A stretch of DNA of 64,000 nucleotides from assembly GCA_030374765.1 (NCBI GenBank), contig JARGXX010000025.1, positions 62,001 to 126,000 of the forward strand, written 5' to 3'. The DNA comes from Agarophyton chilense. Its lineage: Eukaryota > Rhodophyta > Florideophyceae > Gracilariales > Gracilariaceae. Numbering within the stretch: the first letter of the stretch is position 1; each line of letters opens with the position of its first letter. The notes under the pieces are model-generated. The model searched no databases, had not been told where the DNA came from, and saw only the letters and a list, made by a program, of their open reading frames with translations. Both the position numbers and the translations under genes were made by a program. Shown piece after piece: positions 2,281 through 34,301 of the stretch.

Positions 2281-2480
2281 TGTATCGTCAGTGTTCTCGG
2301 AATGCTAGTTCAGTTGTCAAAAAAGGACGAATTGAAATGACCGAAAAACCCGTGAATTTATCCAAATTTGGAGGTGTTAATTTCCGAAAATATTTTCATT
2401 CGTTCATTAGTGCTAGTTTGTATGGGAAGGAAAACTAGCACATATCTACAGTTTTTCTAGTTGTGATGGAGGTAAAACTA
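2281..2480 (+). repeat. Left terminal inverted repeat and subterminal repeats
   Basis: The inverted-repeat core lies at 2291-2308, with an outward extension matching the right end (ATCGTC plus one mismatch). Inside it, GCTAGT/ACTAGC/CTAGTT motifs recur near 2303, 2410, 2434, 2457 and 2476. Such motifs are typical transposase-binding subterminal repeats in CACTA-like families. Confidence 0.8.
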
Positions 2481-2800
2481 GCGTGAATCTTTCTGTCGCC
2501 GCAGTTTAAAGGTAAAAGTAGAGAAGTGGTGCAGGAGCAGATTCAATCTTTGTGCGCTCTAGATTGAGAGATTAGTACAAACAACCGGTCCCAAAATGGA
2601 CCTCAAAATAGAAATTGAACATTTAGTACCATCCATATCAATCGCAATAGAATCGCAGCCCGACCTGGCAGACCTCACGTGCCTTGCATTCTATATTGTT
2701 CTCCACCGCCCTCCCCTGTCACGTGCCCTGTGTGCGCCATACTCTCTCTCCGTCTACGCCCCCTACCAACTTCTTTCCCACCACCTCTCCTCCACCCACC

Positions 2801-5800
2801 ATGCCTTCCTGCTGTTTCAACGGTTGCTCCTTCTTCGCCCGAGAAATCCCCGCCCTCCAGTGGCACCAGAGAAGGTGCCCTCATCGCCTCTCCGCCAACA
2901 AGCGCTTCCTCTCCCCTGGCGGAAATGAACCCAGCTTCCCCCCCCGCACAAAACGCCACAAGTCCACCTCACAACTCCCCCCTCATCCTCCTCCCTCACA
3001 TCGCCCTTCCGACAACGTCCCTCTCGCACACCATGATTCCTACCTCCAAGACCAGCTCTCTCTCTCCCTCCACACCCAGGACGCCATCCACGTCGCCACT
3101 GGCCCTCTCGGTTCCCCCTCCTCTCTCGCTCTTTCCCCCCTCCCTCCTTCCACTCCCCCCCTCGACAACCCCCACCTGGAGAAAATGGTCCTCTACATCC
3201 CCTCCATCGCCTCCAAGCTTGGACAACGAAAGGCTGACGAACTCATCACTCTCCTGAATGATCCCCACTTCTCCGAATCAACATTCCGGAACTCAGTCTC
3301 CTCTGCAAAGCAATGCCTCGAGCTCCAGGCAGACCTCTTCCACCAGAGAATCAGGTCCATTGGTTTCGCCCCCTCCACCATCTTCGATCCCCACAAACGC
3401 TTCTCCGCAACCCTCTTCCAAAAAGACGCAATCCATGTCCTCAAACAACAGCTCGCCCTCGCACACTTCAAGAACACCTTTTCCACCCCATCTCCCAAAC
3501 ATCCGCCTCCGGCTCCCCCGCCTTCGCACACCCCATGGCAGCCACCCTCGGCTCAAAAGTCGTCCCCGCACTCAAGACCGCCATCATGCAGTCCAAAAAA
3601 GATAACATCGTCTGGCATCTCCCTCACTCCACCGGTATCGACTCCTTCATCGGCCTCGTCCAAATCTACTCCGACAAGTCCTCTACCTCTCTCAAATCTT
3701 CTTCCATCACCTCCTACCCCCTCCACATCACCCTTCTCAACTTCTCCGACTCTTTTCGCCGCAAATGCATCTCCGACAATCTCACACTCCTCGGCTATCT
3801 TCCCACCTCCTTCACCCCAATCACTCCTTCTCCAGATGCAGATATCATCACTCATTCCTCCTCCATCCACCGCCAAACAAAAATGGAACTCATACAGCAG
3901 ACCATCTCCTCCCTCCTCCAACCTCTCTTCTCTTCCGCCCTCCCCAGTTTCCCCTTCCGCGACGCAGACGGCGTTCTTCGTCAATGCCACCCCATCATCG
4001 CCAGCTACTGCGCAGACATTCCCGAGGCAAAGGATATTCTCGCCATCTCCCACGGCACCCGCCCCCAGCACCCCTGCCACAGATGCTCTGTCCCTCGCTC
4101 ACAACTCCACCAACACTCTCACGCCCATCCCCCTCGATCTCTTCCCCTCACCCTTGCAGCCCGCAACAAACACTTCTCCCTCCTCAAGGACTCCGAAGCA
4201 GCTCTCCTCGCCCGCAAGCCAAGAGTCTCGCGCAACTTCAAGGAACAAGCTCTCCAAGCACTCCACTCCCTCTCCCTCGCAAAATACCCCACCCTCTTCG
4301 AGTCTTACCCCCTTTTCAACATCACCCCCCTCCTCACCCCATACAACATCTTCCCCTTCGAACCCCTCCACAACTTCCACCTCGGCGTTTCCAAACTCAT
4401 CAAGCTCGCCGCCATCGAACGTCTCAGATCAGAACACCTCTTCACCACCATCAGCTCCACAAACTCCCGCCGTTCCTTCCACTCCGTCCGCACCTCCATC
4501 CTCAAGCACTCCAACTTCATCCTCACCGCCATCGAAAAACATTCCCCAGCTACCGGCCTCCACATCGACTTCTCTACTTCCGAAAGCGGGCAGTCCCTCA
4601 ACGGCTTCTTCACAACTGACGGCGTCCGCGGCATGCTAAAAGCAAAAGACTACCGCGCCCTCGACATGGTCTTTCCCTTCATCGGCGCCTTTTTCGACCG
4701 CTGCTGTGACGAAGCCAATTCCGCTCCCATCACAACTGTCTTCTCCAAGTACACAGACCTCCTCCTCACCTCCATGTGCTACAACTCCGTCCTCGAATGG
4801 ACCACTTCTCGTCTTGCCAAACTCACCTCCCAAATCCATTCCTTCAAGCTCAGAGCTGTCGATGTTCTCGGTCCATACCATACCTCCAACCTTGGCACCC
4901 TCAAATTCCACCTCCTCGATCACATCGTAGACGACATTCGACGCTTTGGGGGTCTCCACTTCAACGATGCAGGCATCTTCGAACAAGCCCATACCCTCTT
5001 CAAAGCACATTACTCCCGAACCTCCAAGCGCAGACCCACCGCGCACAACGAAACCATCCGTGCCATCGAACGCTCCGATGCCGTCAACAATTGGATTTCT
5101 CTCTCCGCTGATCCTTCCGTCACCTCATCCTCCCATGCCCCTCCTCCTCCCTTTCAAGCCCGCAAACCAGGTTTCGTCCGTGATGGCAAGCACACCTCCT
5201 TTTCCGATCTCATCACCGCTCAAAAATTCCTTCGAGCAAACCCCCACTCAACAATCTCTTCCCTTCAGGACCTCTTCTCCCCAGACACTATCGCCATCAT
5301 CTCACAGATTGGAACCCTCGCACTCCCCTCCTTCGTCACACTCACACTCGAAACACTAGCTCTCAACCAGGACTCCCCCACTCTCCGCCAAACCCGTCTC
5401 ACATTCGTCAATTCCGCATACGTCGTCGGCGGCTTCACCCCAACCCTAGACGACTACATCGCCGATCGAAACGAGCTCGCCGTCAAAGATCCCCCTCTCC
5501 CACTCATTTAACGTATCTTCGCTGCTCCCTCCTTCGGTCCCTCTAAAACCCCAAAGTTTTCCCACATCCTCGTTGCCGGTTCCAGCTTCTTCAACCCCAC
5601 TCCCACCGCCTGGGTCTGCAAGCTCAACTCTCTTCTTTGCTTCACCACCCCTTCTTCCCCTTCCACTCATAACGAGTTCGCCTTCGTTCAGTTCCTCGAA
5701 CTCGTTCCACCCCAGGATCAAGTCGATGTCTCTCTCAATTGCATCTGCCTCCGATGGGCAACAGACGACGAACAAAACCACACCGCCCACCCCCTTCCTA

Positions 5801-6021
5801 TCTCAAACACTTCCAACTCCGACAACGTCTCCCCCTGGTTCGGCCTCGTACCATCCTCTTCCATTCTCGGCCCCGTTCATGTACTTCGCCAAAACTACCC
5901 CGCACCCCCTTTCACCCCTCGATTGCACTGGCGCTTCCATCGATTTTACCTCAACAGATTCTACCGAGACCCAACTGCCAAGCCCTACTTCTCCAACACC
6001 ACCACTGGGTGGCACCCATAA
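2801..6021 (+). pseudogene. CACTA/Plavaka/KDZ-like transposase, decayed
   Basis: The ATG at 2801 follows a good ACCCACC context. The N-terminus has a C-x4-C-x12-H-x3-C zinc finger (residues 4-26). The frame then shifts by -1 near 3478-3495, consistent with loss of one C, and continues to a TAA at 5509. Past that stop the same frame stays open to the TAA at 6019, and its protein (segments such as PSSSILGPVHVLR) reads as the natural C-terminus. The middle has a DIPE segment, then a PCHRC zinc-knuckle insertion, then HLLDHIVDDIRRFG and a Glu-containing IFEQAH segment. This is the order of catalytic D, Cys insertion and catalytic E in CACTA/KDZ DDE transposases. A 75-nt GT-AG interval (5482-5556) would remove the TAA in frame, so a micro-intron is an alternative to a nonsense change there. 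The subfamily is unresolved. Confidence 0.7.
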
Positions 6022-6130
6022 TAATACCTCCCAAGGCACATGATCCAATAAAATAGTCACCGCTGCTTTTCTTCCATAGCCGACCCCCATCTTGCCCCAC
6101 CTCCTTACCCTCTTATCCCCCCGTACCTTA

Positions 6131-8784
6131 TCACTCTCCCACTCCTTGCCTACTCCCCAACGCTAAGCGCTTGAACCGTGGTTCTTCTGGTCCACATGAC
6201 GCTATATAGCAATCTAACACCGCTCCCAGTCTTCTCGTGAGATTCTCCATGAAAAACTCCTCCCTTATCGCCAGATAGATTTTCTCTCTCGACGGTATCC
6301 ATAGCCCAGCCGTCGCGATTCTCTCCTTATTCCCACTCCCATCTCTACGATTCCCTCCACAGAATCCATCATTCTCAAACGCCTCAGCATACTCATCCTT
6401 CACCATGTTCCAGGCAACCCTCAATATGTCCTCAACAGCCAGTGGCAGAAACCTCCCAAACAGCGTCGAGAACAAAAGTTGCCTTTGGCCTCCCCGCCCA
6501 ACGTCTCTATACATCGTGGTCACCACACATCCAATCCATGCATCAAGTCGCGCAAGATGCATCACCGTCCCATCCACATACTGCCTTTCTCCATTTCTGT
6601 GACTCTCTACCGCGTAGCCCATAAACTCCTCCAACACTTTCAACGACACCTGATTTCGAAAATACATATCTGCCTCACCAAAGTCCTCCAAGTTCTCAGA
6701 CACCTTCGATCCAGAATAAGTAATATCTTCAATCGCCCTCGTTCTCCACGCACACAGCTTACCTCTCCCATCTTCCCCCGACCCCATCAACTTCTCCTGC
6801 GCCTCCTCAATCTGCTTCTTCAACTCCGCCCAAAGCTCCGTCCCTTCAGTCACCTTAGCTCGTTTCGCGATCAAATCATATCCAAGCATGGAAAACAGCT
6901 TATCACGCGCTGCTCGCTTCCGCACCCCAACCACATCGCTCAATGTCTGCTTCATTCTCTGTCTCAAGCACCTATCTGCACTTACATTTTCCACGCACTC
7001 CTCTCTCCTCCCCGCTTCCCTTATCGACTCCCATTTCTCTCCCATTAACTCAGTCTCTACCACGTGCTTCAACAACAAATGGCTCCCGCCCTCTGTCGAC
7101 GGCGTATACGGTCTCATCTCATATGCAACCTCAATTGGACATCTCGGAACCATTTCCTTCTCTCCCACCACAAACATACTTTCCTCCCTACTCTCCCCAA
7201 CCGCCTCACTTCTATTCTTCCAGCTTCGACCCACATTCTCGGTGTCGAAGCAAAGTTCCGATGCCTCCAGTTTTGCATAATGAAGAATCCTATCATACAC
7301 ACGACGTGCAAATCCATAAAAGCATTCCTGCACTCCAATGTCATACTTTCGTCGCCGCGTCACGCCTCCCTCCCCCCTCCCTTCCCCAGCGATTCTACCT
7401 TTCAACGCCTCCCTCAAACTCTCGATCAGCACATTCTGCTGCTTCATTTCCTCCCTCGCCCGATCCAGCTCCGTTTGGGTCATTTTCAAACTCACCATCA
7501 CACTGTAGCTGTCTTCCTTCATACGTCCCATTTGTCCCTTCACCACATTCATCTTCTCAATTAGCATCGACCGCGGCAACAAACCTATGTCATCATCATT
7601 TGCTTCATCTTCCACTTTATGGACGGCGTTCTCCACGACATTTAAATTCGCATTCTCCCCGTTATCATTATTCCTTGTGAATTCAATGTTTCTCCTTACT
7701 CGCATACCTTCCGGCGTCCTTCGCCTTGCGTTCACCTCAAACCCTTCAACTCCCAAACCCACCCCTCTCCTCGGTGGCAAACGCTGGACATCTTCTCCCT
7801 GATGAGAAAGAACTGCTGCTCTTCCATCGCCTTCCTCCCCTGAACCACGTGTTCTCCCTCCACCAAACCCCCTTCTCCCCCCTCACTCACATGCACTTCT
7901 CTGCTTTCCCTTTCGTCTATCGCTCTTCTTCCTGTAACTCGAACACTCCCCATTCTTTCCTTTGCACGCTCTCTCCTTTCTTCCACGTAATCCAAGTTCG
8001 CCTCCTCCCATCTTTCCGCCTGTTCCCCCGCGGTAACTCCAGCACTCTCTCCTTCTGTTCTCTCTCGAACGACTCTTGCGCCCGCGATTAGACCACTACT
8101 GGGTCCACCTATTCTACCCTCCCCACCACGGCTACTCTCTATTCTCCCTTTCTGTATCTCATCATCACCGTCCTCTTCCCTAATACCCGTAAACGATGCC
8201 CCTGCATCTTCAATGCCTCTAAGGCGGGATCCACGTTCTCCGATCATTCTCTCTCCCTCCTTACGCCCCTTCGTCCTCTCATTCGGAATCTCTTCACCTC
8301 CTTCAGGTGCAGAGCATGAATTTACCGGCTCCACATCAGCTGAAGACGTGAGTACAGCACTTGGAGTCCGCTCGGATGCATCCCCTCTCCTTGTCCTCCC
8401 TGGAGCTCTGCTCGCCCTCCCCCGCAATCCACTTCTAGGTACACGCGTGCAGTTGCTTTGCACGCCATCCCGTTTTCCATCGCCGCTCCGCACCATCTCT
8501 CCCGTAGGCGACGTGATTTGCTCCGTAGGCGACGTGATTTGCTCCGCACTCTCCTCCGTCACCGTCTCCTTTGCGCGAACAGCCTTTCCTTTGCCCCCAC
8601 TCGCCTCTCCTTCCCCACCATCTTGCCTTGATCTACCTCTCAGGCGCACGCCTCCCTTCTCTCCACTCGCGCCCTGGAGCCTACGCCCCTTGTCCCTTCC
8701 GCCCTCCGCATCCCCTCCATGCCGCCGTGATTTTGTACCGCGCCCGCTAGTGTTCTCGCTTCTCGATTTGCGCTTCGGAGCCAT
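6131..8784 (-). CDS. Basic/coiled-coil transposon cargo protein, split by a frame change
   Basis: The ATG at 8784 opens a frame (to 7732) that begins with a basic, nuclear-localisation-like run (MAPKRKSRS). It is rich in Arg, Gly, Glu and Lys and contains a direct repeat (EQITSPT twice). The overlapping frame to 6131 has no ATG at its upstream edge and continues the same strand. The two are best explained as one gene of roughly 880 residues with a -1 frame change around 7735-7800. The second half has a predicted coiled coil (SVMVSLKMTQTELDRAREEM onward) and then a mixed globular segment of about 380 residues with no family I recognise. It lies tail-to-tail with the transposase and shares the minus strand with the methyltransferase gene. 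It could be a DNA-binding partner of the transposase. That is a guess, and no function is assigned. Confidence 0.55.
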
Positions 8785-9107
8785 GGTTGAAGAGAGAGAG
8801 AGCGATCGTGGTATAGTCTTCCATGCGTTGCAATGCGATGGATGGGAGAGAAGCTTCGAAACATTCTGCTTCCAAAAATATACCTCTACCCTTTTCGTGT
8901 TCTCAGAAAACCCCCAAACTTTTCAGATATTTAAATATGCGCTCGAACGCACCAGATATTGGGAAAGTCTTCTCCTTCGGTGTACATGACTTTCCTTTAG
9001 CATATGTACTACGTCACGCTTTGACGTTATATGTAGCGACAAACATAGTAAAAGCCCACAATATCTGGTACACTACAATGAAGTAAAGTAACAAAAGCGA
9101 TGCACTT
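8785..9107. other. Intergenic spacer between two minus-strand cargo genes
   Basis: It holds the 5' flank of the coiled-coil gene and the 3' flank of the methyltransferase-SET gene. The sequence is AT-richer than its neighbours. It is a likely promoter/terminator region, but I see no defined motif. Confidence 0.4.
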
Positions 9108-11251
9108 TTAATCGATTACTATGACTGGCGTGTTATTTATACTCCAGATATACTCTGTCCCATAATCCGCGAACAGCTCCTCTCCTATTTCTATATCTCG
9201 AATTGCTTGCACAGAAAGAAATCTATAGTCTCTCAACTGAAATGGGGTCCGCCCCGTCCCGGGAGTTCTGATGACCCGAACATTTGCAGTGCGGCATCTC
9301 ATTAACCCGTCTTCAACCGCATCCCTGTCCCTATCCCCTTCCCCATACTTGGGGTCGTTAATTGCTCCCCCCAAGCAAAATGGAGCAGGGACAATCCACA
9401 CCGGAATAAGAGACATCCCACTAATTCTTCCTGGTAGCTTGTGAAACACTTCCCCTCGGACGCTTATCTCCATCGCGTACTGCCGAAAACGATCAGCAGT
9501 CGCTTTCAATAGCCCCCCTTCGTATGCCTTATGAACTTCCTTCCGCTTTGAAAGATTATGGTACACCAAAGTCCCGTAAAAGTAACAAGCAGTCTCACCT
9601 TGTATCACCTGGCGTGTTTTGTACACACAAACTCCAGCATTCGGGTGCCTTATCGTCGACTTTGCAATCCGACAACCACATACTGTCGCCTCCACTGCCA
9701 GAATAGCATTCCAATCCAACAGTGACATCTTTCCTTGAAAACTTCTTGGCCACTCATACAGGGCCTGCCGTCGCCCAATCTCCGGTATATTCTTATCCTG
9801 CCACATGGAGGAGAGAAAATCCACGATATGGGGTGGAAACATCTGATGCTCGGGAAATCCGGTAGGTGTTTTCCAGGACTTCGAACGCTTTATGACGACG
9901 TCCGGAAACAAGCATGTCACTCGAGTCACAGATTTCCGAACATCTTGCGTTATATGAATGTCCGTCTTGTTGTTCCGCATGCATGACGCAAATTTCACTG
10001 TAGCGGCGTGCTTCGCATGAGCAAAGCACTGCGGATCTGGCTCACACCCTAGAAACTGACGGTTCTTTTCCAGTTCCATGCATGCCATGGCCGTTGAAAA
10101 TGTTCCGGCGAAGAGGTCCACCAATATGTCTCCCGGCTGAGAAAACCTGCTGATGAGCTCCTTCAGCAAAGCGCGTGACTTCTGTTCCGCCCGCACTTTC
10201 TGATACGTAACTGCTCCTTTGGCATTCTTCCTTCTCCATAGAAGTGTTTCACAATTCGACATGGGAGGCACTTGGTCAATCACGCTATGGTAACCCGGAT
10301 ATCGCGATGGTACATAGCTGAAGTTCTCATAGTTCACCATTCCATGTTTTTCGGCGTAGGACAACCCGCTGCGAACTCCATGAATGGCGTACTCTGTTCC
10401 CGGAAACAGGGAGCACGAACTACGTCCGGGATTACGCATCGGATTGCCTTGAGAGCGAATGAAGTGCAGCTGGACCTTGTCCACGACAAACGACCTGCTC
10501 TTCTGTCCATTCTCATCCTTTGCACCGATTCGACCCAACACTTCTTTCCATTCGTTCACCTGCTCAATCGCGCAGAATATAACGAAATGCCCTCCCGGAC
10601 GCAGAAGTTTAGAGATGAGCTTCGCCGTCTTCACCATGTCTTGCCGGTTAAGAACGTCGTACCAGCTGTTTTTCCTGTTCTTCTTCGCACGCATATTATA
10701 CGGCGGGTCCGTGAGAACCAACTGCACTTTCCCTATCGGAGAGACCCCATTGCTGCGCAATGTCCCTTCAATCTCCACCAGGTACAATTGTACATTCGAC
10801 AGTGCTTATCCATCTCCGACTCGCACTTTTGGAGAGACAATATATCATCCAGAGAGGTAAGGTCGTGAGGCGGCAGAATATCCACCGGCTCAGATTCGAC
10901 CGACCTTGGTCCAGCTGTGGAAGAATGCTGACCAACACCCATGTTCTCTTCCTCATTCTCGGTCCCACCCTCCACCGCCGGAGCCTCCGAATCTTTCTCA
11001 GGGGGTACAACTTCTATCTCGTCTTCTTCCATAACCATAGTAGGTTCCGCCTTTGTCGCAGCCACCGCTTCCACCTCCACACTCCCTCGCAGCTTTAGTG
11101 GCGATATGTATTCCGAGATGGTAGAGATAAGAGAGTTCGAGAAGCAGTCGAATCTCTCCGCAAACACGGGGTGTGCTGCGACTTCATCGGTCCACCGATG
11201 AAGTCGCAGGGCACCCCTGTCGGCCGACAAACACGCCATAACATCACGCAT
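9108..11251 (-). CDS. DNA methyltransferase (DPPY type) fused to a SET domain
   Basis: The long frame 9108-10787 has no ATG at its upstream edge. Counting from there, residues 24-33 read VLTDPPYNMR (catalytic motif IV) and residues 222-232 read VDLFAGTFSTA with CEPDP after it (AdoMet motif I). Motif IV before motif I is the beta-class order, and DPPY is typical of N6-adenine rather than N4-cytosine enzymes. Residues about 380-410 (NAGVCVYKTRQVIQGE, then YGTLVYHN) and about 525-547 (VQAIRDIEIGEELFADYG) match the start and end of a SET domain, the fold of protein lysine methyltransferases. A second frame, 10733-11251, supplies an acidic N-terminal extension and joins by a -1 shift or a short intron between about 10790 and 10880. 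The ATG is at 11251 or 11037. The gene is divergent from the dioxygenase gene across the hairpin array. The DNA substrate and the SET target are unknown. Confidence 0.75.
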
Positions 11252-11480
11252 GATGCTTTTCTGAGATGTTGGTCGACTGTCGGCCGACAGAGGTGCGCTC
11301 CGACTTCATCGGGGGTCCCGATGAAATCCCCGCGCACCTCTGTCGGCCGACCAAGTGCACCATGTACACCTGAGCGTTCCAAAAATTACAAAATTATATG
11401 TATTATGTCGGCCGACAGAGGTGCGCGGGGACTTCATCGGGACCCCCGATGAAGTCGGAGCGCACCTCTGTCGGCCGTCA
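11168..11480. repeat. Array of three large hairpins built on TGTCGGCCGACA
   Basis: Hairpin 1 (about 11173-11212) has arms around TGCGACTTCATCGGT with a 2-nt loop. Hairpin 2 (about 11279-11352) and hairpin 3 (about 11407-11477) each have arms of about 35 bp and almost no loop. Hairpin 3 is nearly the exact reverse complement of hairpin 2, so the pair also forms a nested inverted repeat. The 12-bp self-complementary TGTCGGCCGACA is perfect at 11218-11229, 11278-11289 and 11406-11417. One-base variants occur at 11341-11352 and 11469-11480. The array sits between two divergent genes, so it is a candidate operator or binding platform. Part of hairpin 1 overlaps the extended methyltransferase reading frame. 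Confidence 0.9.
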
Positions 11481-11770
11481 GGATATTTTTAATTTTTTAA
11501 TTTTATTTTCTTGTATCGCCTACCAAGCCAATAGGCGTGTTTGTGATGGAAAGTGACAAGGAGTTTCTTGAGTTTGAAACTAAGCGGACGTAGCTCAGGT
11601 TGAAACTAAGCGGACGTAGTTCAGGCTGATTGCAACGAACTGCTCTCGGGAGTGTTCCGGATAGTCGCCACCAAAGGAGCTCGATCTAATACGTCTTAGT
11701 CTGTATACCATAAAAGGCTCAAAGCGCTCTGCGACCGTTTGCAACCTCGACCGACTACGATCCGATTCAA
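11252..11770. promoter_or_regulatory. Divergent intergenic region between methyltransferase-SET and dioxygenase genes
   Basis: The minus-strand methyltransferase frame opens at 11251 or 11037, and the plus-strand dioxygenase gene starts at 11771. This space must therefore hold both 5' flanks. It contains hairpins 2 and 3 of the array, an AT-rich stretch near 11490-11510, and a short direct repeat, AAACTAAGCGGACGTAG, at about 11577 and 11603. Confidence 0.55.
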
Positions 11771-14700
11771 ATGATGACTCGAGGCAAAGCGAAAGCGAGG
11801 GGTACTCCGCGGGGTACTCCACGCGCCACTCCGCGAAAAGCTACATCGGGAAACAATCTGGCTGGTGGGGATAGGGTGGCGTTGTTCCTGGCGGATGGGA
11901 CAGGGAAGAAGAAGGGTACTATGGTTGGCACTGCGGAGTTGAGAGGTGTTGGGGGCAGTGGAGCGGCCGGGAAGGCGCTTTGCAGAGCGATGCATGGCCA
12001 TTCGTTGCGCGAGTCTGCGAAGCCGGGAGAGGACTTGGTGGCCATCTGGAGAACTGAAATTAAGGAGGGGATCAACTCCAAGTATCCGTACTCCTTCAAG
12101 GGAGCAGAGGAGCCGCCGGAGTTGCTGAAGGATATGGTGTCGGCAGGTATATAGGCATGGGATACCTCGATGATGACATGCGTCTCCTCTGTGCTGACTC
12201 CAGGGCCTCCTCGGCCGGAGACTCCCAAAAGCGCGACCCCCTCGAAGGAGTCTGCTACGCCTTTGAGGGGGAAGAGGGCACAGCCAACAACAGTGCCGCC
12301 GGCCATGAAGCAACCCGTCAAGCCGAAAAAGAGGGTGACGATAGTGGATGATTCTGATGAAGATGTTGTGGAGGTGGGGTCAGCGGTGAATGTACGCGGG
12401 GATTCGCACACCGGTCCCGAGTTGGAGTTGTTCGATGACGGCGATGCCGTTCCTTCGCAGGAAGTGGATAGGACTCTCGTGGAAAAGAAGATCTCTTCTT
12501 CAGACTATGACCAGTGCGGCCTGATTGTGGACATAGATGAGATACAAATCCCCGAGAAGACTGTCAGAAGTGTGAATGCAGAACAGAAGGCGGCGACGAT
12601 GGCAAAGTGCAAAACGTTTGGCTGGCTTGCGTCGACAGGGTCGATTGCTGTTGCCGTCGTCGGGGGAATGGAATTAGATTTCAGTGAAATTGTTCACAAT
12701 GGGAGGGTAGTGGTGCCTGTCATACTCATTGACGGTCATCACCGCGTCTTGGTTCTGCGAGATCTGAAGAATGATCCCTCTGAAGGGAGAAAGTGGTTGG
12801 AAATTGTGCGGTCTCTTGATGTCGTTCTTTGGAGACGAAAGGACCGGAAGCCTTTATCGCTGAACGAAGTGCTCGGTCTTGGTAATGTACTCAATGAAAT
12901 GAGTTCAAATGTGTTGAAGATGAGTTTCGCCGACAAGGTTCATTCGACAGTGTCCTTCATTTGCAACTTGATTGACGATAAGAGAACCAAGTTGGCTGAC
13001 CTTACTGCGACATGGATAGCTGGGGCGCTGAAGACGAGCGAAGCTATAGGAATCTACAGCTTGCCCCACATGAATCGCTATGCGACTCTTGGGTTGAAAT
13101 TCGTCAGGAGCGAAGGTCTCCTGGAGTTCTTTGAGAACGTATGCAAGGGGGGTCCAGTGCTAACGCTTGCGCATGTGTCGAGTGACTTGTTGTTAGGACT
13201 CGAAGACGAAATATTCCGTTTCGCAATCCGTTGTTTGCAACTACATGTGAGGGTGAGGATGGGTTCTACGGGGAATATGGGACGTTTCCAGGAGACGCGA
13301 AAGCAGTTCTTCCAATGCGCCATAGGAATGTTCCAACTATGCGAAAGGGCGGGAAAGGAGAAGGGTCTGACGGCGGGGAAGGTTCTAGACAGCACAATTG
13401 TTATGGGAAAGAACGAGGTGTCTTTAAGGGAGTACCTTTGCATGCAAACGGCGAAGATGGAGCTCAGTGGTCCGAAGCGGTTGTGGCCGGGGTTGGTGTC
13501 GAAGAGGATGAAAATCGCACAAAGGCGGATTGAAGGCGGTCTGAAAGTGAGTCTGGCGTCCCCAAGTGCGGAGAAGGATGTGGTGGAGGTGCCACCTTCT
13601 GTGAATGTTCCTTCTTCTAGTGCTGGGGAGTCTGTAGTCCACCAGGAAACCGTGGTTCCCAGACGCATCACACGAACTAGAAAAGGTACTGAGCGCGGGC
13701 TGGATGCTGCGGGTGAGAGGGTGATGGAACCCACACAGAGAAAGGGGAAGAGAAAGGCTGTGGTCATTAGTGATGATGAACGCGAGTATGAACAGCCTTT
13801 AAAGCGGAAGAGGAAGAGGAGAAAGACGGTGGGCACATCTGCGGCTCAAATACCGGCTGACGTGGTGGATGTGTTCAAGAAGATGAGCAGGAAAGAGCTG
13901 AAGCGCTTCTTGAAGGAACATGTACTCAATGTTTTCTCATCGAGTGAGGATGAATTGGATGATGACGGGGGGCAGGGTGCATTTGTAGGGGACGAAGAGG
14001 AGGAAGGTGTGCAAATGCGTGGCTTCGAAGACAATAATCCGGAGGGTGTTCCGAAGGGGCTGAAGAGGGCGGGACCGTATGCGGGGGGGTCGGGTATGTC
14101 GTGGGTGTACTTGGTGAATGCACTTCCGAGCGAGTGGCCGGCGGGTGAAAATGGAGTGAAGCATCAGAATCTCTGGATGCATATGATTTACCTGCGGAAC
14201 AAGCACAGGGCGGAGTGCTTGAGGGTAGAAGACTTGAAAAGTGTGCACCATGCGGTTTATTGGCGCGCTGCTCGTAACAGGCACAAGGAACTGGGTTCCA
14301 CGAAAGTACCGGTTCTTGGGGTGTTTCTACCGACGAAGGACCACCCTGTGAATGCAGAGCAGGCGATATGGATGGCAGCAATGGAGAGGGATGACTTGGC
14401 CCGCGATTACTTCGCGACTAAGAGAAGTGAGCTGATGGAGAAAGGATTTTGTGTGCTGGAAGAGTTTGCCACGGACGAGGGGATGGCGGATGAGGCGAAG
14501 AAGAAGGGGGTAAACTTCGATGGGGATGTGACTGGGACTTTGCTAGAGTTCTTCCAGACGGATTTCTTGAACCAGCCGGACTTGACGATTGAAGGGAATA
14601 GAAAGAAATGGGACCCTATAATCAACGCTGGTGAGGAGAGAGACGCTGGAGATAGAATGAAGGGAGTTGGGCGGTACATTACGACGAAGGTGGGGATTGT

Positions 14701-15457
14701 GGATTCTGTGGAGAGGGACGAGAACAACGTTTTAATGGTGAGGAAAAGGGCATTGTTGAATGCGGGGTTTGGACAGATTGCGGCCGCTCTTCGGTTGTGC
14801 AACAACAGGTTGGGGAAGAAGAGGATGTATGCCCCTGAAACAGGGGGGCGAGTGCTGTGTACGGCGGAGGGCTGTCCAAGGCAGGTGTTACATACGGACT
14901 TTCGAGGACTGACCGATGCCGGGAAGAACGTCGGAGAGGTTCCAGGGTTCTTCATGATGGCGTCGGGAGCGAGTTTGTTTATGCTTTGGGTTTGTGAGAG
15001 GTCACATAACATGTACGTGCCCGACGACAGGAGCTTGAAGCGGCTGTCTCGGACGATGGTAGTGAGGAAGTTCAGGATTCCGCCGTACTCCATTTTTATT
15101 GGAAGAGGAGATGTGTTTCATGCTGGAGCTGGATACGAGGATGCATTGGTTAAGGAAGTTTGCATGAGGTATCACATGTACTTGGTACCGGATTGGTACA
15201 AGCTACCGGACGCAGTGCATAGGCAACCAGCATTTCGGCCTAAGTTCGAAGAGGATGATTCCAACAAGGGTGATGATGAAGACGTCCAGGTAGATGAGGA
15301 TGAGGAGTTGGATGAAGATTATAAAATGGAAGTTGTTGAAAGTGGGGAAGAGGAGTATGAAGAAGAGGATGATGAACCTGGGATGGGTCTCAACTCGGCT
15401 AACACAGATGGAGACTATGAAGACGGCGGTATGATAATGGATGACGACGACGACTAG
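11771..15457 (+). CDS. ParB-like plus 2OG-Fe(II) dioxygenase-like cargo protein, one micro-intron
   Basis: The ATG at 11771 starts a frame with a repeated Thr-Pro-Arg basic N-terminus. An in-frame TAG at 12152 is removed by a 57-nt GT-AG intron (12147-12203), giving about 1209 residues. Residues about 230-320 resemble ParB/Srx N-terminal domains, including IDGHHRV with DGHHR at 302-306. The middle has basic patches (KPLKRKRKRRK type) and acidic runs. The C-terminal fold carries H1022-x-D1024 (VLHTDF), H1098 (GRGDVFHAG) and R1114 (MRYHMYLVP). These are the iron and 2-oxoglutarate ligands of the dioxygenase double-stranded beta-helix. A long acidic tail ends the protein. Enzymes of this fold include TET/JBP and AlkB base oxidases and also prolyl hydroxylases. 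The location beside a DNA methyltransferase favours a DNA-modifying role, by inference. The ParB assignment is weaker than the dioxygenase one. Confidence 0.75.
12147..12203 (+). other. Micro-intron (57 nt) in the dioxygenase gene
   Basis: The donor is GCAG|GTATAT and the acceptor is CTCCAG|GG, with a CTGAC branch-point-like motif just upstream. Length is divisible by three, so both exons share one frame. The only in-frame stop (TAG at 12152) lies inside it. Confidence 0.75.
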
Positions 15458-15538
15458 ATAGTATCTGTTACCTATTGAACAATAAAGAGTACAATTTGAG
15501 GTAATATGTTGAGTAGTCCCCTTTTCTTGTAATAGTGA

Positions 15539-16724
15539 TCAGTCGTCTTTCAGTAGAAACTCCTGAACAACTGGATTGAAACGCGTGAGAGTAGCACTTG
15601 CTTTCACTTTTTCATAGTGAATGACAACTGTCGAAGATATAAAGATTACGACATCCACTGTGTTACCAAGCAGTATAGGAACACCAAGTCCCTCAATGCG
15701 AGAGGTGGAGAAGGCGGTTGAAGAGAGTGCAGCGAAAGTGCATGCCGACAGCCACATACCGAGTAGTCGAAAGGTTACATCCGGACTGGATATGAATAAA
15801 GCCTGTTGAAAAGAGTGGGAGAGGGCGCCAAGCACGAGGTTCATAAAAGAGGTTCTCCGTGGTTCCGGGGTCATTGTGAACTTTGTGTTAAGATAGGACT
15901 CTGGAAAGAAGGATATAGAAACAAGCTGGAGAAGACATGCCAAAGCGCCAACTGCGGCCCCTCCTGTGGAGAAGGCCATACAATTTGTCTTCACGTCTGA
16001 TGAAAGGGTACCGCTGACTGGAATGAAGCGGTGAACGAGGAAAATTATGGCGTGGAGGGGGATGAGTAGAGTAAGGAGTAGAGCCCCGAATTCCAGAAAG
16101 GCTCGTTTCTTCCAGGTATATCGCTGGTTTGGATTGAACGGCGTAGTTTGTAAAGACCCGTATAACGCGTTTATACATTATACGCCTCCTTCGATTATGA
16201 GAATGTGTAGCAGGCTTTGGATAGAACATCTCAATAGCGTTATGAGAATGAACCGAAGGAGAGAGTTGAATCTGAATGGAAGCGTATATTGCAGAGCTGG
16301 GTCTATATCTCCGAAGAGTGTAGTTAGTGTGATTGTGAACGTTAAGGTCGATGTGAAGAGTGCTTGCTAACTGAACATCTTAGTAAAGGCGTTCCGGTTT
16401 GCTAGTCTTCCTTGTACGCTGCACATAGGTAACGATATGATACCGCTCTTTGAACAGTTGTTTCAGAGTATCTTGCTGCTGTAGGGAGTTGCGAGTGGGG
16501 AGCCTCCTGGTGGTCGTACAAATGTCACGAATCTCGTCCATGAGCTCGTTGGTGATATGATTCTGGAACCCTCTGACTTCGACCACATTCTGGGTGGTTG
16601 GAAGTTTGATTTGAAGGACTTCGTCGATGGTGATAACCGTTCGTTGTGGAAAAATATCCACAGCTGCTGAGCATTGGACAGAAGAACCAGGGGGTAGGGA
16701 AAGACGTGCTTCGTAGCGCTGCAT
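15539..16724 (-). CDS. Polytopic membrane protein with predicted micro-introns
   Basis: The C-terminal part is clear: hydrophobic segments near LEFGALLLTLLIPLHAIIFL, GGAAVGALACLLQLVSI, FRLLGMWLSACTFAAL and VVIFISSTVVIHY, ending in FLLKDD before the stop at 15539. Upstream the same frame meets a TAA near 16171. A 60-nt GT-AG interval there is in frame and would remove it, adding a hydrophobic stretch (LLRFILITLL). Further upstream a non-hydrophobic domain, starting at ATG 16724 (MQRYEARLSLPPG), could join through a GTG...TTAG intron of about 58 nt containing a TACTAAG-like branch site. The product would be a soluble N-terminal domain plus five or six membrane spans. No family is recognised. 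Without splicing it would be two or three broken frames. An open frame upstream to 17006 may extend the N-terminus. Confidence 0.5.
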
Positions 16725-17139
16725 GCTTGAGAAGGAGAGGAGAGTGTTGTGTAGAAAGGTATTTGTGAGGGACTGGATACAGTATGTTGAGCGCAATGAA
16801 GTAGGGTGGTCATCGGTGGGTATATATATGTAGTGATCAAAGTAGTTGTTAGGTTGTTGCCGTATTTTTGTTGCGGAGTATGAATAATTGTTATGAATGA
16901 AAACCTTTGATAGGCTGTAGGAGCGGTTATTGGGTACAGAGTTAATTGCAAAGTTGGAAGATTTATGAAGAGTGGTTGTAGTGATGATTTGTGATGTACG
17001 AAGCATTTCTTAATATCGTTTCATATATTCTGACGTGGTGTCGTGCGGATAGCAGTCTTTATCGAGGCAGCGAAGGAGATGGACATATGCTTTAGAAAGG
17101 AGGACTTGTTTTTATTGGAAGGGGTATATGAATGAAGTA

Positions 17140-17964
17140 CTACCCATTGAGGAGGACGTTCAAGAAGTTCGTATGGAAAGGGGCGGGGTCACGGTTTCCA
17201 ATGGATTTTTGGGCGTTAGAAACGTTGTAGAAGTAGACGTTCCGAAACTCAAAGTCTGAGAACGAGGTGGGGAACTGTGTAAGTGTTTTTCCGTGGGCCA
17301 GAAGTTTTTGGAGTGTTTCTGTTGTATTGTAAGCGATTCCTGTTTCGGATGTGGCGATGGCGAGGAGCTCCTTCTTTATGGTTGAAACGACTGTGCGGTG
17401 TTGTACTGCAACTTCGTGCATTGTGATAAAGCCATAAGAGGAGCCAACGAGATTAAAAGCTGATATTCATACGAGTTTTTCGTAGTAAGCGTTAGAGAAG
17501 GAGGGCTGGTCGACGACATGAAAAGTGAGGCCTGCGGTACTGAGGCGATTGGCGAGTGCGGGAGCCCATTTGCCGGTGGCAGTTGTGAGACCATTGGGAC
17601 TGAGGAGGGTGACACCGTCCTCGGGGGGTGCGTTAAGGGAGGGGACGGCGAGGAAGATAACGGCTTTGGTGCAGTTTTGGAGCCCATAGGTTGAAAGAAG
17701 AGGGAGAATGTTTCCGTTCTGAAGGAAGACCAGATCCTCTCTGCGGGAGGAAGGGCAGAATTGAATGACGTCTTCGAGTGAATGATTTCTGCCGCAGAAG
17801 AAAATGGGGCCGTCGGGGATGTATTGCGCGGAGATGAATTCTTGAGTTGAGAGAAGAGCATCTTGTGGGGTGCTGTTGTTGCGAAGCAAAGTGCCGATTC
17901 GGCCTCTGCCGACAATAACAGCTGGGTCGGAGGTGCAAGGGATGGCAGTGAGAGAGTCGGTCAT
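17140..17964 (-). pseudogene. Ketopantoate reductase (ApbA/PanE)-like gene with one nonsense codon
   Basis: The ATG at 17964 begins MTDSLTAIP, followed by a dinucleotide-binding strand with a G-x-G-x-x-G motif (AVIVGRGRIGTLL, residues 15-27). Next come REDLVFLQNG and the EKLV...ISAFNLVGSSYG segment that starts the C-terminal helical domain of this family. The codon after EKLV is TGA (about 17467) where Trp is expected (EKLVWISAFN). The same frame then stays open to 17140. About 274 codons is normal for the family, which reduces ketopantoate or related 2-keto acids with NADPH. It lies among the transposon cargo genes and looks like a captured host metabolic gene. It may be a pseudogene, a sequencing error or, less likely, read through. 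Confidence 0.65.
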
Positions 17965-18535
17965 GTTGATTGCGAAAGGTGTTTGGAGTGCGGTGTGCTT
18001 GGAATTGAAGAAGTGGTGGGGTGGCGAGTGTGGAGATGTGACTAAATAGAGAAGGAGTATGGTTGTGGAGGAATGGTTGTTAGGGGTTTTTGGAAAGGAG
18101 GTTAGATTTATGATATTGAATGGTGTTTATCGTGTTAAAAGTGTAGGAGTGTGTGTTGTTATGGAATTCATAACGGGAAAGAGGGCTTATGAGTAATCGG
18201 CGGTTTGTGTTACGAATGAGTGTGATTTATTATAAATGAGAAGGCTATGAAATTGGGAGTAGTGAGGGAGCGCTGAACATGATAGAAGGTGTAGGAATAT
18301 GGATGGGAGTGTGTGAGTGAGCAATGAGTGGGGTGAAGGGCATCCGGAGCGTAGATGCAGGGGTGTACAAGGGTACTGAAATTGGGCGAGCGCGCGCGAA
18401 AAGCGGGTCAAAAAAAGGAGATAAAAGGCCGGAGGTGGGCGAGAGGATTTTCGAGGCGGGGTGCTGTGTGGGAGGCTGCGGGTACTACTGGCCGCACTAA
18501 GGTGAGTGCGCTTGCGCTTGCGGTGGCTCTTGTCG
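17965..18535. other. Intergenic region between reductase-like and small coiled-coil genes
   Basis: The sequence is G/T-rich on the plus strand and has no supported coding frame. A strong splice-donor-like AG|GTGAGT occurs at about 18500, so the small gene to the right might have an upstream exon within 18355-18500. I cannot confirm it. Confidence 0.35.
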
Positions 18536-19006
18536 ATGGCTTTCGCGGGCTTTGGCGATGTCGAGCGGATCCCCATGGGGCTGGAGATGGGGAAGCTGTG
18601 GAGGGCGAATGAGGAACTGAAGAGGCGTGTGAAGGTGTTGGAAGTGCACATGGAAGGGGTGGGGGAGATTTGGGATGCGCGGAAGGTGTTGAAGGAGGTG
18701 GGAGAGGAGAGGGGGAGAGCGAAAGGGTCGCCGGTGACGCCAGGGAGACGCGGGGAGCCGGCTGGGATGAAGAAGGGGAGAGAAGAATGGAAAGGGGGAG
18801 GAGTTGGAGAGAGTCGGCTGAAGAAGAGGAGGGTCGGTAAGGATGTGGAGAAGAAGGGTGGGAATGTGTGTGTGGTGGGGCAGCCGGGTGTGGGGAACTT
18901 GAGCAGTGGGGAGGTGGACGAGGTTGAGAATGCGGTGGTGGACTTCTTCAACCTCAAATACCCTCCCGGTGGAACGCTGGATCCTAGTAAGCAAAAGGGC
19001 CAGTAA
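18536..19006 (+). CDS. Small basic coiled-coil cargo protein
   Basis: The ATG at 18536 gives MAFAGFGDVERI and about 156 residues. A short leucine/valine heptad stretch (LWRANEELKRRVKVLEVHM) suggests a coiled coil. It is followed by a Lys/Arg/Gly-rich region with a possible nuclear signal (RLKKRR) and a C-terminus ending at SKQKGQ. Base composition (purine-rich coding strand) matches the other cargo genes. The opposite strand is also open over 18187-19062, but its product is a low-complexity Ser/Pro/Leu string and I treat it as a shadow. Function is unknown. A dimerising DNA-binding accessory is possible. Confidence 0.45.
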   Translation: MAFAGFGDVERIPMGLEMGKLWRANEELKRRVKVLEVHMEGVGEIWDARKVLKEVGEERGRAKGSPVTPGRRGEPAGMKKGREEWKGGGVGESRLKKRRVGKDVEKKGGNVCVVGQPGVGNLSSGEVDEVENAVVDFFNLKYPPGGTLDPSKQKGQ

Positions 19007-19139
19007 GGAGGTAGAAGGTACTGACGACTGCCTTGGTATGGATCTCCACCTAGAGCGGTCAAAAGTGACCAGTAAACTGCAAATGCAGATTAAACTGCAT
19101 TAAATGGTCAAAACACTAAGATGCATGGAGTTCTTATTT

Positions 19140-19268
19140 CCAAAAATATTTTTTTCAGGTGCCGAACTAGCGCAATCTGCAAAATTCTTTGATTTTTTGG
19201 CTTTTTATTTACAAAACTAGCTATCTAGCACACTTATCTAGCATTCCGAGAACACAGACGATCGGACA
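19140..19268 (-). repeat. Right subterminal repeats and terminal inverted repeat
   Basis: ACTAGC at about 19166 and 19215, then CTAGC at about 19225 and 19238, lead into the inverted-repeat core at 19238-19255. That core is the exact reverse complement of the left core. GACGAT continues the match outward with one mismatch. ACA at 19266-19268 could be the outer end if the left end is TGT at 2281. Confidence 0.8.
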
Positions 19269-22819: not shown

Positions 22820-25800
22820 TTACGGGGGAACGCTACCTCGAGGGTTCATATGTTCCGAGTTGGGAGCTTCGTGTGTGGGAACCGGGTCGGGAGCTCTCGC
22901 TGTTACCGTATGAGGTTCTATTTCCGTCCCTGTTAGAGGGTTGTAATCCGAATCATCCCGTTGTAATTCATCATTCACCTCCATCGGGGTGGGGTCCTCC
23001 GAGGGTCGAGTGCGCAGAGCTACCGCTCTGGGCTCTCGGGCTGAGGTGCCTGCCTCAATGCGATGTTGAACCGTCTTAGGTGCTACTGTAATACCGTCAA
23101 TTGATATCGTATTCGGTATTTCATCTTGGTCAACTGTAACGGTGTGCTCTGATGTGTTCAATACCTTATAAGGTCCCACTGATTTGGGTAGAAGCTTGGA
23201 ATTGATATCTCTATCAATAGCTTCATTGTCCGCTTCATCACCCGGTCGTGGTCTTTTACCTGAAGGTGGGTTGTCTATGTAGACATATTGTCCCGAAGAT
23301 ACGGAGACCACTTTGGTTACCCTACGGTCGAAGACGGCCTTGTACCGCTTCTGGGCTGCAGTGAGGCGGCTCTCTGCATGTTTGAGAACCCTCATCAACC
23401 TCAAAAGGGTATTTCGCTTGAGTTGGGCAGGGGTCAGTATGCCAGATGCAACGCTGGTGGTATGATCTCTCTGCACCACAATACCTGGGGGGTGTCGCGA
23501 AAGAACCAAATCAAAGGGAGTGGTCTGCGTTGACCGGTGTACCTGAAGGGTATAGGAGTAGGTCAGCGGTTGCACCAGCTCATCCCACCAAGTTTGGTGC
23601 TCTTTCATATAGTGTCGTAGCATTGATACCAATGTGTGGTTAAAGCGCTCGACCTGTCCGTTCGTCTGCGGGTGGTAGGCAGTAGTGAAATAGTGCTTGA
23701 TACCCAAGAGGTTACAGACTGCTTCGAAGAACTTCGATGCCAAGTTTGAACCGTTCTCGGTAAGTAGGTACAGTGGTGCAACATACGGGTAGACCCAATT
23801 GTTGAGGAACGCGATCGCCAGCGTGGTTGACTTCGTCTCCTTTAAAGGTATCGCTCTCGTGAGCTTCGAGAACCTGTCGGTGATCATTAGAATGTGCTGA
23901 TACCCATTCTTGGTCTTGGGAAGTGGTCCTAAAAGGTCTATCTAAACAACCTCCAGTGGACCCGCTGCTGGAAACAGCTTAAGGTACTTTCGATGTTTTC
24001 GAATTTCACCTCGGGTACGAACACAAGATTCGCATTGACCTACAAAGGTATAGACATCATGGGTCATATGAGGCCAATAGAACTATTGCCTCAAGTTGTA
24101 ATACATCCTGGTGGCACTAGGGTGTCCCGATAGTCGCGAGTAGTGCGCGAGATACAAGACTCTCGGGCGTAGTGCCTTCGGAACCACCTTTTGAACGCTA
24201 CCATCCAAGGTTGACATTCTCACGATATACTCATTGTGATCCACATCTTATTGTGATCCTTTGAAACCAATTTGGTCAGCCAGGGTTCTGCAGTACGCAT
24301 CCTGGGCCTGTTCTCGTTGAAATTCCTCTCGGGTTACGGGTATGGCGTTCGTTTCCTCTAGGGTCAGTATCTGCGTTGCCATGTCGGTGTTCTGCAAAGC
24401 ACCTTCTTCAGGTAAGTCCCAACATCCTTCTAGGTGTTCGCTGGTACTATTTTGGTTTGATGACACCGAAAAGCAAGGGATGTCATCGTCCACAGGTTCT
24501 GTCTCTAACCCTGAGGTGTTTTAGCGTGATATAGCATCAGCTATGTTGTGCTCGATACCTGGACGGTTTAGTACGTCGTATTCAAACTCCGACAGTCTCA
24601 ACCTCCAACGGGCGAGTCTACCAGACGCATCTGCGAGTACGAGGATCCACCTTAAGGCGTCGTGGTCTGTGCGCAACGTAAAGCGCTCACCATAAAGGTA
24701 TGGACGGAGCATCAACATGCTCCACACTACTGCTAGACATTCTTTCTCGGTTACCGTGTAGTTCTGCTCCGCCTCATTCATAGCGCAGCTTCAGTACCCT
24801 ATGGGTACTTCGTCTCCGTTGTGCTCTCTTGCATGAGACAACAATCAATTTGGGTATGGGATGCATCTGTATTCAGCGTGTATGGTAGACATGTTTTCGG
24901 TAACGCTAAGATTGGCGGCGACAACAGCGTTCGTTTCAATTCCTCAAAGGTACCCATTTCGTCGTTCGATAGATTCTAAAACCGTTCAGGTTCACTTTTC
25001 TGGAGCTTCTTGTTGAGGGGAGCCGCTGTTTTCGCGAATCCCTTCACAAAGCGACGATAGACGTTGCATAAACCTATAAAGGATCGCACGTCTGTCTGGG
25101 ATCGTGGCACCTTGACCTCCGGTACGGCTCTAATGTTGTTCGGCGCAACCTCTAGGGTACCAGGGCCTATGATGTGGCCCAGGTATTCAACCGTTCTCGT
25201 GAAGAAGACGCATTTGCGTAGCTTCAGCGTCACCCCCGCCTCAGCTAGGAGGGTTAGTACGGTGCGCACGTGAGCAAAATGTTCTTCTACCGATCTGGAG
25301 TATATGATTACATCATCGATGTATACCAAGGCGGTTGTTTACTTAACCTTCGAAAGGATGATGTCCAGCGCCCTTTGAAAGGTGGCTGGAGCATTGCGCA
25401 ACCCGAATGGCATCCGCGTAAAGCGAAACAAACCTGCATGTCACGTGAAGGTCTTTTTGTCTCGATCTTCCTCACCTACAGGTACCTGCCAATAACCACA
25501 ATTGGCATCCAACGTGGTAGATATCTGCGCATCTCCCAATGAGGCGATGCACTCACCCGTTCTAGGTATCGGGTACGAATCCCTGATGGTCACACTATTG
25601 AGCCTCCTGGAGTCCACACAAAACTTCATACGGTTATCCCCTTTCTTCTGAAGCAGAACCACGGGACTAGCCCAATCTGAGTTGGCTGGTTCAATTACCC
25701 CTTCTTGGAGCATTCGCTCCACTTCTTTGAGTTTTATCTCTCTCGCCTTCGGACCTGCTCGATATGGTTGCTGGTAACTCGGCTTCGAGTCAGGGAGGAG

Positions 25801-33619: not shown

Positions 33620-34301
33620 TATTAATGACGAGTGGTTGTAGTTTAAAGGTAGAAGAGCCAGGCGATGACATGGGTATGATATGAATGTGGGACGCTAGGC
33701 TGTGAAGGCGGGTAGTAAGCTAAACCGACGAGGGTTTGTAGTTCTGTACGGGGTGGAAGTACATTGAGTGAAACCCATCTAGAGCAAAAGACGATCTGCC
33801 TTCGTGAATCTAAATCGATAAATCATATAGACGTAGGAAATCAGCGTGCTCGCCATGCACTCTTTACAGCCGCAGTCCGATGGGGTCGTCGCCATTCATA
33901 TAGGTTGAAAGAGGGAACGAGCGAGAGACAATCAGTGCGCGCGACGTAGACAAGAAAGAGGGCGCCAATGGCGCAAGGTCAACGTAGCGGACGCGACAGA
34001 CGCTCGTGGAGCAACAGTGGCGCAGCCCGTGCCGCGTGGCGCAACGGAAAAAAGAGTCACACGCGCGCAGCGGCGCAGTGCGCGCACACAGCGCCACCAG
34101 GCGCTCGTTGTAGACGCGCCAATGGCAGCGCTTCGTTTCGAGCATCGCACGCAGTTCCACGCCACTGTGCGATTCCCCCAGCAGCCTCGGCCTCCCCTCC
34201 ACCCTACCCCCCCCCCCCCCCCCCCCCAACTGCAACCGCACCGCTCCCCCTGCCTCCATCCTTCCCCTTTCCCCCCCCCCGCCGCTATCCTTCCTCGTCA
34301 C
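33620..34301. other. 5' flank of the DENN gene with poly-C tract
   Basis: No supported gene. It includes a run of about 21 C at 34207-34227 and a second C run near 34271-34280. The DENN frame is open through this stretch, but the implied protein is poly-Pro low complexity, so it is more likely leader sequence. Confidence 0.5.

Follow-up and report, generated by a model that had tools for sequence, protein, structure and literature searches.

Can a DNA transposon carry the enzymes with which to mark its own chromatin? The question is raised by a stretch of 64,000 nucleotides of the red alga Agarophyton chilense (GenBank assembly GCA_030374765.1, contig JARGXX010000025.1, positions 62,001 to 126,000; hereafter the window), in which a preliminary description, made from the letters alone, had placed a 17-kb DNA transposon with a DNA-mark writer, an eraser-like enzyme and a histone-methyltransferase-type domain. 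We followed it up in the genome (80 Mb, 135 contigs). The element is a unit with target-site duplications (TSDs) and many copies that look like one burst, both domains of its methyltransferase–SET fusion are recognized in an intact copy, and a full-length sister of the fusion is found near contig ends. The reading that we favor, with a probability of roughly 0.55, is that the window holds a decayed copy of a large Plavaka-type transposon that tunes its own chromatin through this dual writer.

Limits, class and copies of the element

The ends, the target duplications and the transposase of the window copy are as follows:

2286..19260, whole transposon, 16,975 bp, delimited by the ends of homology in copies and the 2-bp TSD
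2284..2285, left target duplication AT, from the compared flanks of copies
19261..19262, right target duplication AT, from the compared flanks of copies
2286..2314, plus strand, left terminal inverted repeat (TIR), including an exact 18-bp core
19232..19260, minus strand, right TIR
2651..6063, plus strand, Plavaka transposase gene, frameshifted; end estimated from the frame length of 1137 amino acids (aa) in the C117 copy
3658..4395, plus strand, Plavaka transposase domain PF18759

The limits are given by the copies. With the first 1,001 bases as a probe, the best 40 of 159 candidates were 97–100% identical, and 26 of the 39 matches other than the window copy began exactly at 2286; all but one began within 5 bases of that position, the exception being truncated by the start of a contig. 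The last 1,000 bases were found nearly full length at at least 38 places (94–100% identity), with two more matches covering the terminal 687 bases and one a tiny stretch, and the majority of these matches ended at 19260. Identical dinucleotides flanked five of the six copies for which both ends were fetched (AT in the window, then TA, TA, TG, and TA), the copy on C13, where the two ends differ, being the sole exception. The joined flanks of the window copy were found unbroken and almost end to end at the best 40 of 802 candidates (88–94% identity), and the target is therefore a high-copy repeat. Copy-defined ends, 2-bp TSD and empty sites together identify a transposon inserted in a repeat. 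On these points the preliminary description was largely right: it had noted an insertion inside a repeat, which it took for a Ty3 LTR, exact 18-bp inverted ends, which sit within 31-bp arms of 90% complementarity, and subterminal repeats, which appear as a clustering of CTAG (five in each terminal 260 bp vs. 13 across the other 16,455 bp). Aligning copies, as it had proposed, fixed both the ends and the target duplication, and its limits of 2281 and 19268 proved 5 and 8 bases too wide.

The transposase frame matched the Plavaka profile PF18759 with 81.1 bits (E = 1e-22, curated cut-off 26.3), which was its sole Pfam match at E up to 0.1. According to the available part of PMC12730594, Plavaka is a relative of CACTA/EnSpm, its TSDs are 2 bp in PlavakaA and 2–3 bp in PlavakaB, and its termini are 5'-CATCA..TGATG-3' in PlavakaB and TGT..ACA in PlavakaA. 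The 2-bp TSD of the element agrees with this. Its termini, 5'-CGTCA..AGACG-3', are closer to those of PlavakaB than to those of PlavakaA but match neither, and we therefore class the element as Plavaka, not as PlavakaB. The transposase had earlier been called CACTA/KDZ-like: the CACTA side holds through the kinship of Plavaka, whereas KDZ (Kyakuja-Dileera-Zisupton) was rejected on the Plavaka-only Pfam match and on a TSD of 2 bp, as against 7 bp or 8 bp in Kyakuja and Zisupton. A candidate CHRC motif was picked out by eye in the frame 3262-5511, where HNFH would be the H(2)H motif.

Four probes, taken from the left end, the methyltransferase–SET gene, a second cargo gene encoding 1228 aa and the right end, each matched at least 38–40 places at 94–100% identity, the two cargo probes at least 40 each with the query included. 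The TIR core, with at most one mismatch, occurred 311 times in the genome and its reversed pattern 0 times. A search with TIR core and cargo, suggested at the outset, thus found many further copies. From 100 of the 311 core matches we derived 30 convergent TIR pairs and scored their cargo by profile hits and by DNA matches of both cargo probes, the cargo counts being lower bounds. The Plavaka domain was present in all 30 pairs, the methyltransferase in at least 16, the 1228-aa gene in at least 16 and both in at least 13, with a SET hit in at least 12 of these 13; 11 of the 30 had no cargo among the matches listed, and only the transposase was found in them. In at least 13 of the 30 pairs both cargo genes thus lie within the TIRs, and five copies have TSDs, so that the refuting outcome named in the preliminary description does not hold for the main family. 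Among the matches listed, the family consists of cargo-bearing elements and of elements where only the transposase was found, with the same TIRs. Chance nesting of the cargo is ruled out by the copies found with all four probes, the TSDs in five copies, the empty sites and the position of the cargo inside the TIRs.

The paired elements measure 3.0 to 18.9 kb; two pairs exceed this, at 26.8 and 39.7 kb, probably because other insertions are nested in them. Over 29 right ends, the median divergence was 1.2% from the consensus and 2.3% pairwise, in a star-like pattern; the copies look like the descendants of one burst of a recently active element. A short element at C16:982452-986708 is 98% identical to the window element over its terminal 687 bases, which fits a recent internal deletion. 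Two further TIR pairs, C3:1589371-1603382 and C2:1067377-1080405, have Plavaka and methyltransferase hits and no SET or 1228-aa hit, and we regard them as diverged or decayed relatives. The copies on C69 and C70 have 25 bases of right flank in common, and the copy on C60 the 12 bases that were compared; the contigs differ, and the three may be haplotypes or duplicated segments.

All three main genes are broken in the window copy. The transposase is frameshifted relative to six of the seven other aligned copies, the C13 copy having the same change; the methyltransferase–SET gene lacks its 5' part, lost at the border of a central palindromic array, and carries a frameshift deeper inside; and the 1228-aa gene contains an in-frame stop near its 5' end. 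That the methyltransferase–SET gene is broken follows from other copies, which read through as one continuous frame, and an intron between its two frames in the window was rejected on the same ground. The C117 copy, of 18.77 kb, is intact; there and in the C10 copy the frames are open over 1137, 1043, and 1247 residues, the last corresponding to 1228 from the first ATG. Across the genome, the 1043-aa frame is free of stops at 11 of the 113 methyltransferase places, a twelfth having the same frame length and an internal stop, and the 1228-aa protein is full length and stop-free in 8 of 39 matches.

A methyltransferase–SET fusion and its sister near contig ends

The fusion gene is represented in the window by the following features:

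9108..11167, minus strand, methyltransferase–SET gene remnant without the 5' part and with a broken frame; intact copies encode 1043 aa
10014..10727, minus strand, N6_N4 methyltransferase domain PF01555
9159..9635, minus strand, SET domain, placed via homology to C117 and below the cut-off in the window copy

In an intact copy, the N-terminal 480 or so residues match nothing, and after them come N6_N4_Mtase at residues 505-742 and SET at 869-1027. Both domains exceed their Pfam cut-offs there: PF01555 scored 66.9 bits (E = 3e-18, cut-off 26.7), and SET (PF00856) scored 23.4 bits (cut-off 22.4) over positions 1-105 of the 105 in the profile, compared with 16.3 bits in the window copy. The DPPY methyltransferase–SET fusion that had been proposed is therefore real at the level of predicted protein, one polypeptide joining a bacterial-type amino-methyltransferase and a SET domain. 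The sequence QLVLTDPPYNIRA was read in 23 of the 31 aligned methyltransferase rows, and the DPPY motif suggests adenine as the target. The nearest PDB sequences were those of DpnA (9e-10), CcrM, RsrI, and MboIIA. Domains of the N6_N4 type have evolved specificity for N6-methyladenine or N4-methylcytosine repeatedly (PMC8885841, available part).

Genome-wide, PF01555 gave 116 rows at 113 distinct places, with a SET hit downstream of 80 of them. Beyond this genome, relatives were found at at least 80 viral and 16 prokaryote loci, all matching within residues 469-762 only, and the SET domain is therefore outside all of these matches. Six short N6_N4 methyltransferase fragments (C79:655360, C105:1199179, C71:762401, C128:250771, C68:3647902, and C95:188333), each located in a frame of 165 aa that contains a single TAG, probably belong to another repeat that carries a decayed methyltransferase piece.

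Twenty of the 116 rows belong to frames with a length of 1130 or 1141 aa, the majority of which lie near contig ends. The sister protein encoded at C25:3300-7600 aligned with the element fusion over nearly its full length at 38% identity (35% by BLASTP), the identity being 54% across the methyltransferase and 44% across the SET domain, compared with 27% and 31% elsewhere. Its SET domain scored 26.1 bits against PF00856; of the canonical SET motifs NHSC and DYG, the latter is kept in both the element and the sister proteins and the former is replaced by IND. The sister DNA was found at 37 places including itself, at 92–100% identity. Of the 31 matches on contigs no shorter than 150 kb, 25 lay no more than 20 kb from a contig end, compared with 2.1 expected under a uniform spread, and 30 of the 31 had the 5' end toward the contig end and are thus transcribed away from it; one match was 663 kb inside a contig and in the opposite orientation. 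Orientation was mixed on contigs below 150 kb. If the repeat did no more than break the assembly, both orientations would be expected on the large contigs. A TTAGGG pattern gave no match in a search that skips simple repeats. We consider the sister family likely subtelomeric, although the contig ends are not proven telomeres. None of the three Plavaka hits listed on C25 adjoins the sister gene.

The second cargo gene, the palindromic array and strand asymmetry

The remaining features of the element are the following:

11771..15457, plus strand, gene of the 1228-aa protein, with an in-frame stop near the 5' end in the window copy
12731..12745, plus strand, DGHHR, a weak ParB-like motif
14891..15169, plus strand, HTD ... 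H ... R, candidate site of a 2-oxoglutarate (2OG) oxygenase, without statistical weight alone
11168..11504, central palindromic array, three hairpins in the window and about eight in C117; GC-skew minimum at 11389
6131..8922, minus strand, two overlapping frames of 583 and 396 aa, possibly one gene, no Pfam match
15539..16177, minus strand, hydrophobic frame, probably a membrane protein, no Pfam match
17467..18126, minus strand, 219-aa frame, no Pfam match, with a GRGRIG start that we take to be Rossmann-like

The 1228-aa protein had been labeled ParB-like/2OG-dioxygenase, and the searches did not bear this out. Whole and in fragments, it gave no credible domain in Pfam, NCBIfam, PADLOC, or PDB, and its PHROG hits were at chance level, the one to an "endonuclease" having E = 0.13. 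A Pfam search up to E = 10 gave no match to a Tet_JBP or other 2OG profile, although a very diverged type would escape it too, and none to a ParB profile; two patterns tried for viral relatives found none. The HxD-H-R pattern arose in 4,174 of 5,000 shuffles (83%) and DGx[HN]R in 153 of 5,000. The surrounding FHAG...RYHMYL context presumably resembles that of 2OG enzymes, and we lean slightly toward a putative 2OG oxygenase; a ParB-like fold we consider less likely than not.

Were the protein such an oxygenase, the element might hold a writer and an eraser of DNA marks, the latter removing or oxidizing the marks of the methyltransferase or of the host. The arrangement of HTD, H, and R in a context that looks 2OG-like speaks for this pairing, which we nevertheless find doubtful: the pattern is as common in shuffled sequences as stated above, and Pfam, NCBIfam, PADLOC, and PDB lend it no support, with PHROG at chance. 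TET-bearing Plavaka families do exist, but in the available part of PMC12730594 they carry PE-type TET with an HxE metal site, whereas the 1228-aa protein reads HTD, that is, HxD. Of the fuller epigenetic toolkit envisaged in the preliminary description, the writer fusion is thus supported by sequence and the eraser comes down to a pattern without statistical weight.

Large hairpins with TGTCGGCCGACA ends separate the two cargo genes, which are divergent and have this palindrome-rich region upstream in common; in the window, the first ATG of the 1228-aa gene lies 604 bases to the right of the point where the methyltransferase–SET gene is deleted. The gap between the genes could be measured in 23 of 29 copies and ranged from 1.98 to 3.34 kb, compared with 1.07 kb in the window, as if the array had changed in hairpin number between copies. 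An Rfam search of the window returned nothing.

The array also divides the element by strand composition. Per kb, the GC skew was -0.36, -0.56, -0.51, -0.51, -0.51, -0.54, -0.24, -0.18, and -0.15 to its left and 0.13, 0.23, 0.35, 0.36, 0.27, 0.38, 0.47, and 0.44 to its right, the minimum of the cumulative skew falling within it; the asymmetry is absent from the flanks (0.04 and -0.01). Random flips of 250-base blocks attained the observed skew range in 0 of 2,000 trials. The two-halved skew spans 2651-18900 and fades 0.2–0.4 kb inside the ends, with outermost values of 0.13 and 0.14 (2286-2650) and 0.21 and -0.11 (18901-19260). At fourfold sites, the skew of the coding strand was -0.93 and -0.96 in the transposase and +0.76 and +0.43 in the two minus-strand frames on the left, +0.39 in methyltransferase–SET, +0.50 in the 1228-aa gene, and -0.30 in one of the minus-strand frames on the right, the other (+0.03) not following; in the sister near contig ends it was -0.29. 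The skew is largely independent of the coding strand.

Mutation in inserted copies was rejected as its source, as the predicted equilibrium skews were 0.27, -0.09, and 0.11 and those observed -0.49, -0.28, and 0.47. The ratios of complementary mutation rates were 0.86–1.15, and one 0.33, in the middle set of 30 copies; they were 0.75–2.9 in the noisier left set (8 copies, only 153 changes) and 0.9–1.9 in the right set of 27 copies, where C was lost faster than G, matching the direction of the skew. One-strand cytosine deamination was rejected too, as the AT skew does not follow. Since changes after insertion fail to predict the skew, it probably arose in the active lineage, through replication or transposition, or was maintained by selection. 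It covers transposase and cargo alike, which argues for long co-residence and against capture of the cargo just before the burst, and suggests that the two have long traveled together. Transitions at CpG were 1.3–1.6 times as frequent as at other C or G, and the copies thus seem to bear little trace of CpG-methylation decay.

Elsewhere in the window, Ty3-type retrotransposon domains are found at 43445-47505 and 22820-23941 (protease; reverse transcriptase, RNase H, and integrase in separate frames; a second integrase piece). At 33909-37763, in a locally C-rich stretch, a frame of 1284 aa contains a DENN domain (E = 2e-19) and is probably a host gene.

What the dual writer may do

Under the favored reading, the methyltransferase domain would mark adenines in the DNA of the element and the SET domain would mark nearby chromatin. 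The palindromic array would set the expression of both divergent genes, and the 1228-aa protein would perhaps bind it, with the outcome that the element would adjust its own chromatin state. We infer the catalytic activity, its targets and the direction of the effect, as well as the parts played by the array and the 1228-aa protein.

Several observations weigh against a chromatin-tuning transposon. The S-adenosylmethionine motif of the element is FAGTFST, with F for glycine, and that of the sister FAGTGST; IND replaces the usual NHSC of SET; and no domain was recognized in the 1228-aa protein in the searches above. Changes in the methyltransferase–SET gene are near neutral, the ratio of nonsynonymous and stop changes to synonymous ones, (pN+stop)/pS, being 0.89 for singletons, 0.69 for changes in two to three copies, and 0.74 for those in more, so that there is no direct signal of selection among the copies; near-neutral change is what copies that decay once a burst is over should show. 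To these add the 11 pairs without cargo among the matches listed and the sister family, which has no transposon context and implies that the fusion need not serve transposition.

The captured methyltransferase–SET and 1228-aa genes might, alternatively, be passengers, useless to the transposon and decaying after each insertion. Near-neutral changes, transposase-only elements among the matches listed, and the stops in most of the 1228-aa matches would all be accounted for; we still hold this to be unlikely, given that several copies kept long frames open through the last burst, that both enzymatic domains were kept when compared with a 38%-identical sister, and that the cargo has the strand asymmetry of the element, so that its capture was not just before the burst. 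Improbable to a like degree is a host silencing or chromosome-end system that came first and from whose gene family the transposon copied the fusion, perhaps to interfere: the 37 near-identical matches, mostly at contig ends and in one orientation, and the canonical FAGTGST of the sister favor such an origin, but 38% identity means an old split, the ends may not be telomeres, the transfer could have gone either way, and the end family could be selfish too.

The chromatin-tuning reading can be widened to both settings of the fusion. A eukaryotic writer family of bacterial-type amino-methyltransferase plus SET would have been taken up by selfish DNA as a module. One branch would ride on a giant Plavaka element whose array would serve as promoter and perhaps also as an origin of replication, which would account for a two-halved skew growing away from it, and the sister branch would colonize chromosome ends. 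Both would mark DNA and histones and so govern the chromatin of the repeats that they belong to. This wider version we consider rather doubtful.

Among known systems, the closest are the TET+ PlavakaB families of Agaricales (PMC12730594, available part). They resemble the element in its Plavaka transposase above the cut-off, its 2-bp TSD and its great length with an extra gene, and its termini, CGTC[A/T], are at the left end one base off the published CATCA. They differ in cargo, which here is an amino-methyltransferase–SET fusion with no Tet_JBP match and HxD in place of HxE, and the available part of that paper makes no mention of a central palindromic array or of a two-halved skew. The same part names HarbingerS and MuDR transposons of Phytophthora that, as here, bear a SET methyltransferase gene, but with a different transposase and no mention of a DNA-methyltransferase fusion. 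In N4CMT of bdelloid rotifers, a bacterial-type N6_N4 methyltransferase is joined to a eukaryotic chromatin domain and is a proposed partner of a SET enzyme (PMC8885841, available part); its gene belongs to the host and its protein combines SPPY and a chromodomain reader, whereas the element protein unites DPPY and SET in one predicted polypeptide on a transposon. The sister family recalls the RecQ helicase genes that Agaricus bisporus and other fungi carry in repeated, similar or identical form in their subtelomeres (PMC7473861, available part); those genes encode helicases and not a methyltransferase–SET protein.

As far as the available parts of these papers go, DNA transposons with a TET or a SET gene (PMC12730594) and, in rotifers, the union of an amino-methyltransferase and a chromatin reader (PMC8885841) are already published. 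An amino-methyltransferase–SET fusion on a transposon or at fungal chromosome ends was not found in the titles and starts of abstracts listed in searches of open-licence literature, and a prior mention is possible. If the favored reading is true, one mobile gene would command both a DNA mark and a histone-type mark. The methyltransferase–SET cargo makes it testable whether mobile elements write, and not merely erase, their own marks, and the sister family, with its near-identical members near contig ends, places the same enzyme in another setting. The skew, absent from the flanks and unpredicted by changes in inserted copies, hints at an unrecognized step in the replication or movement of the element.

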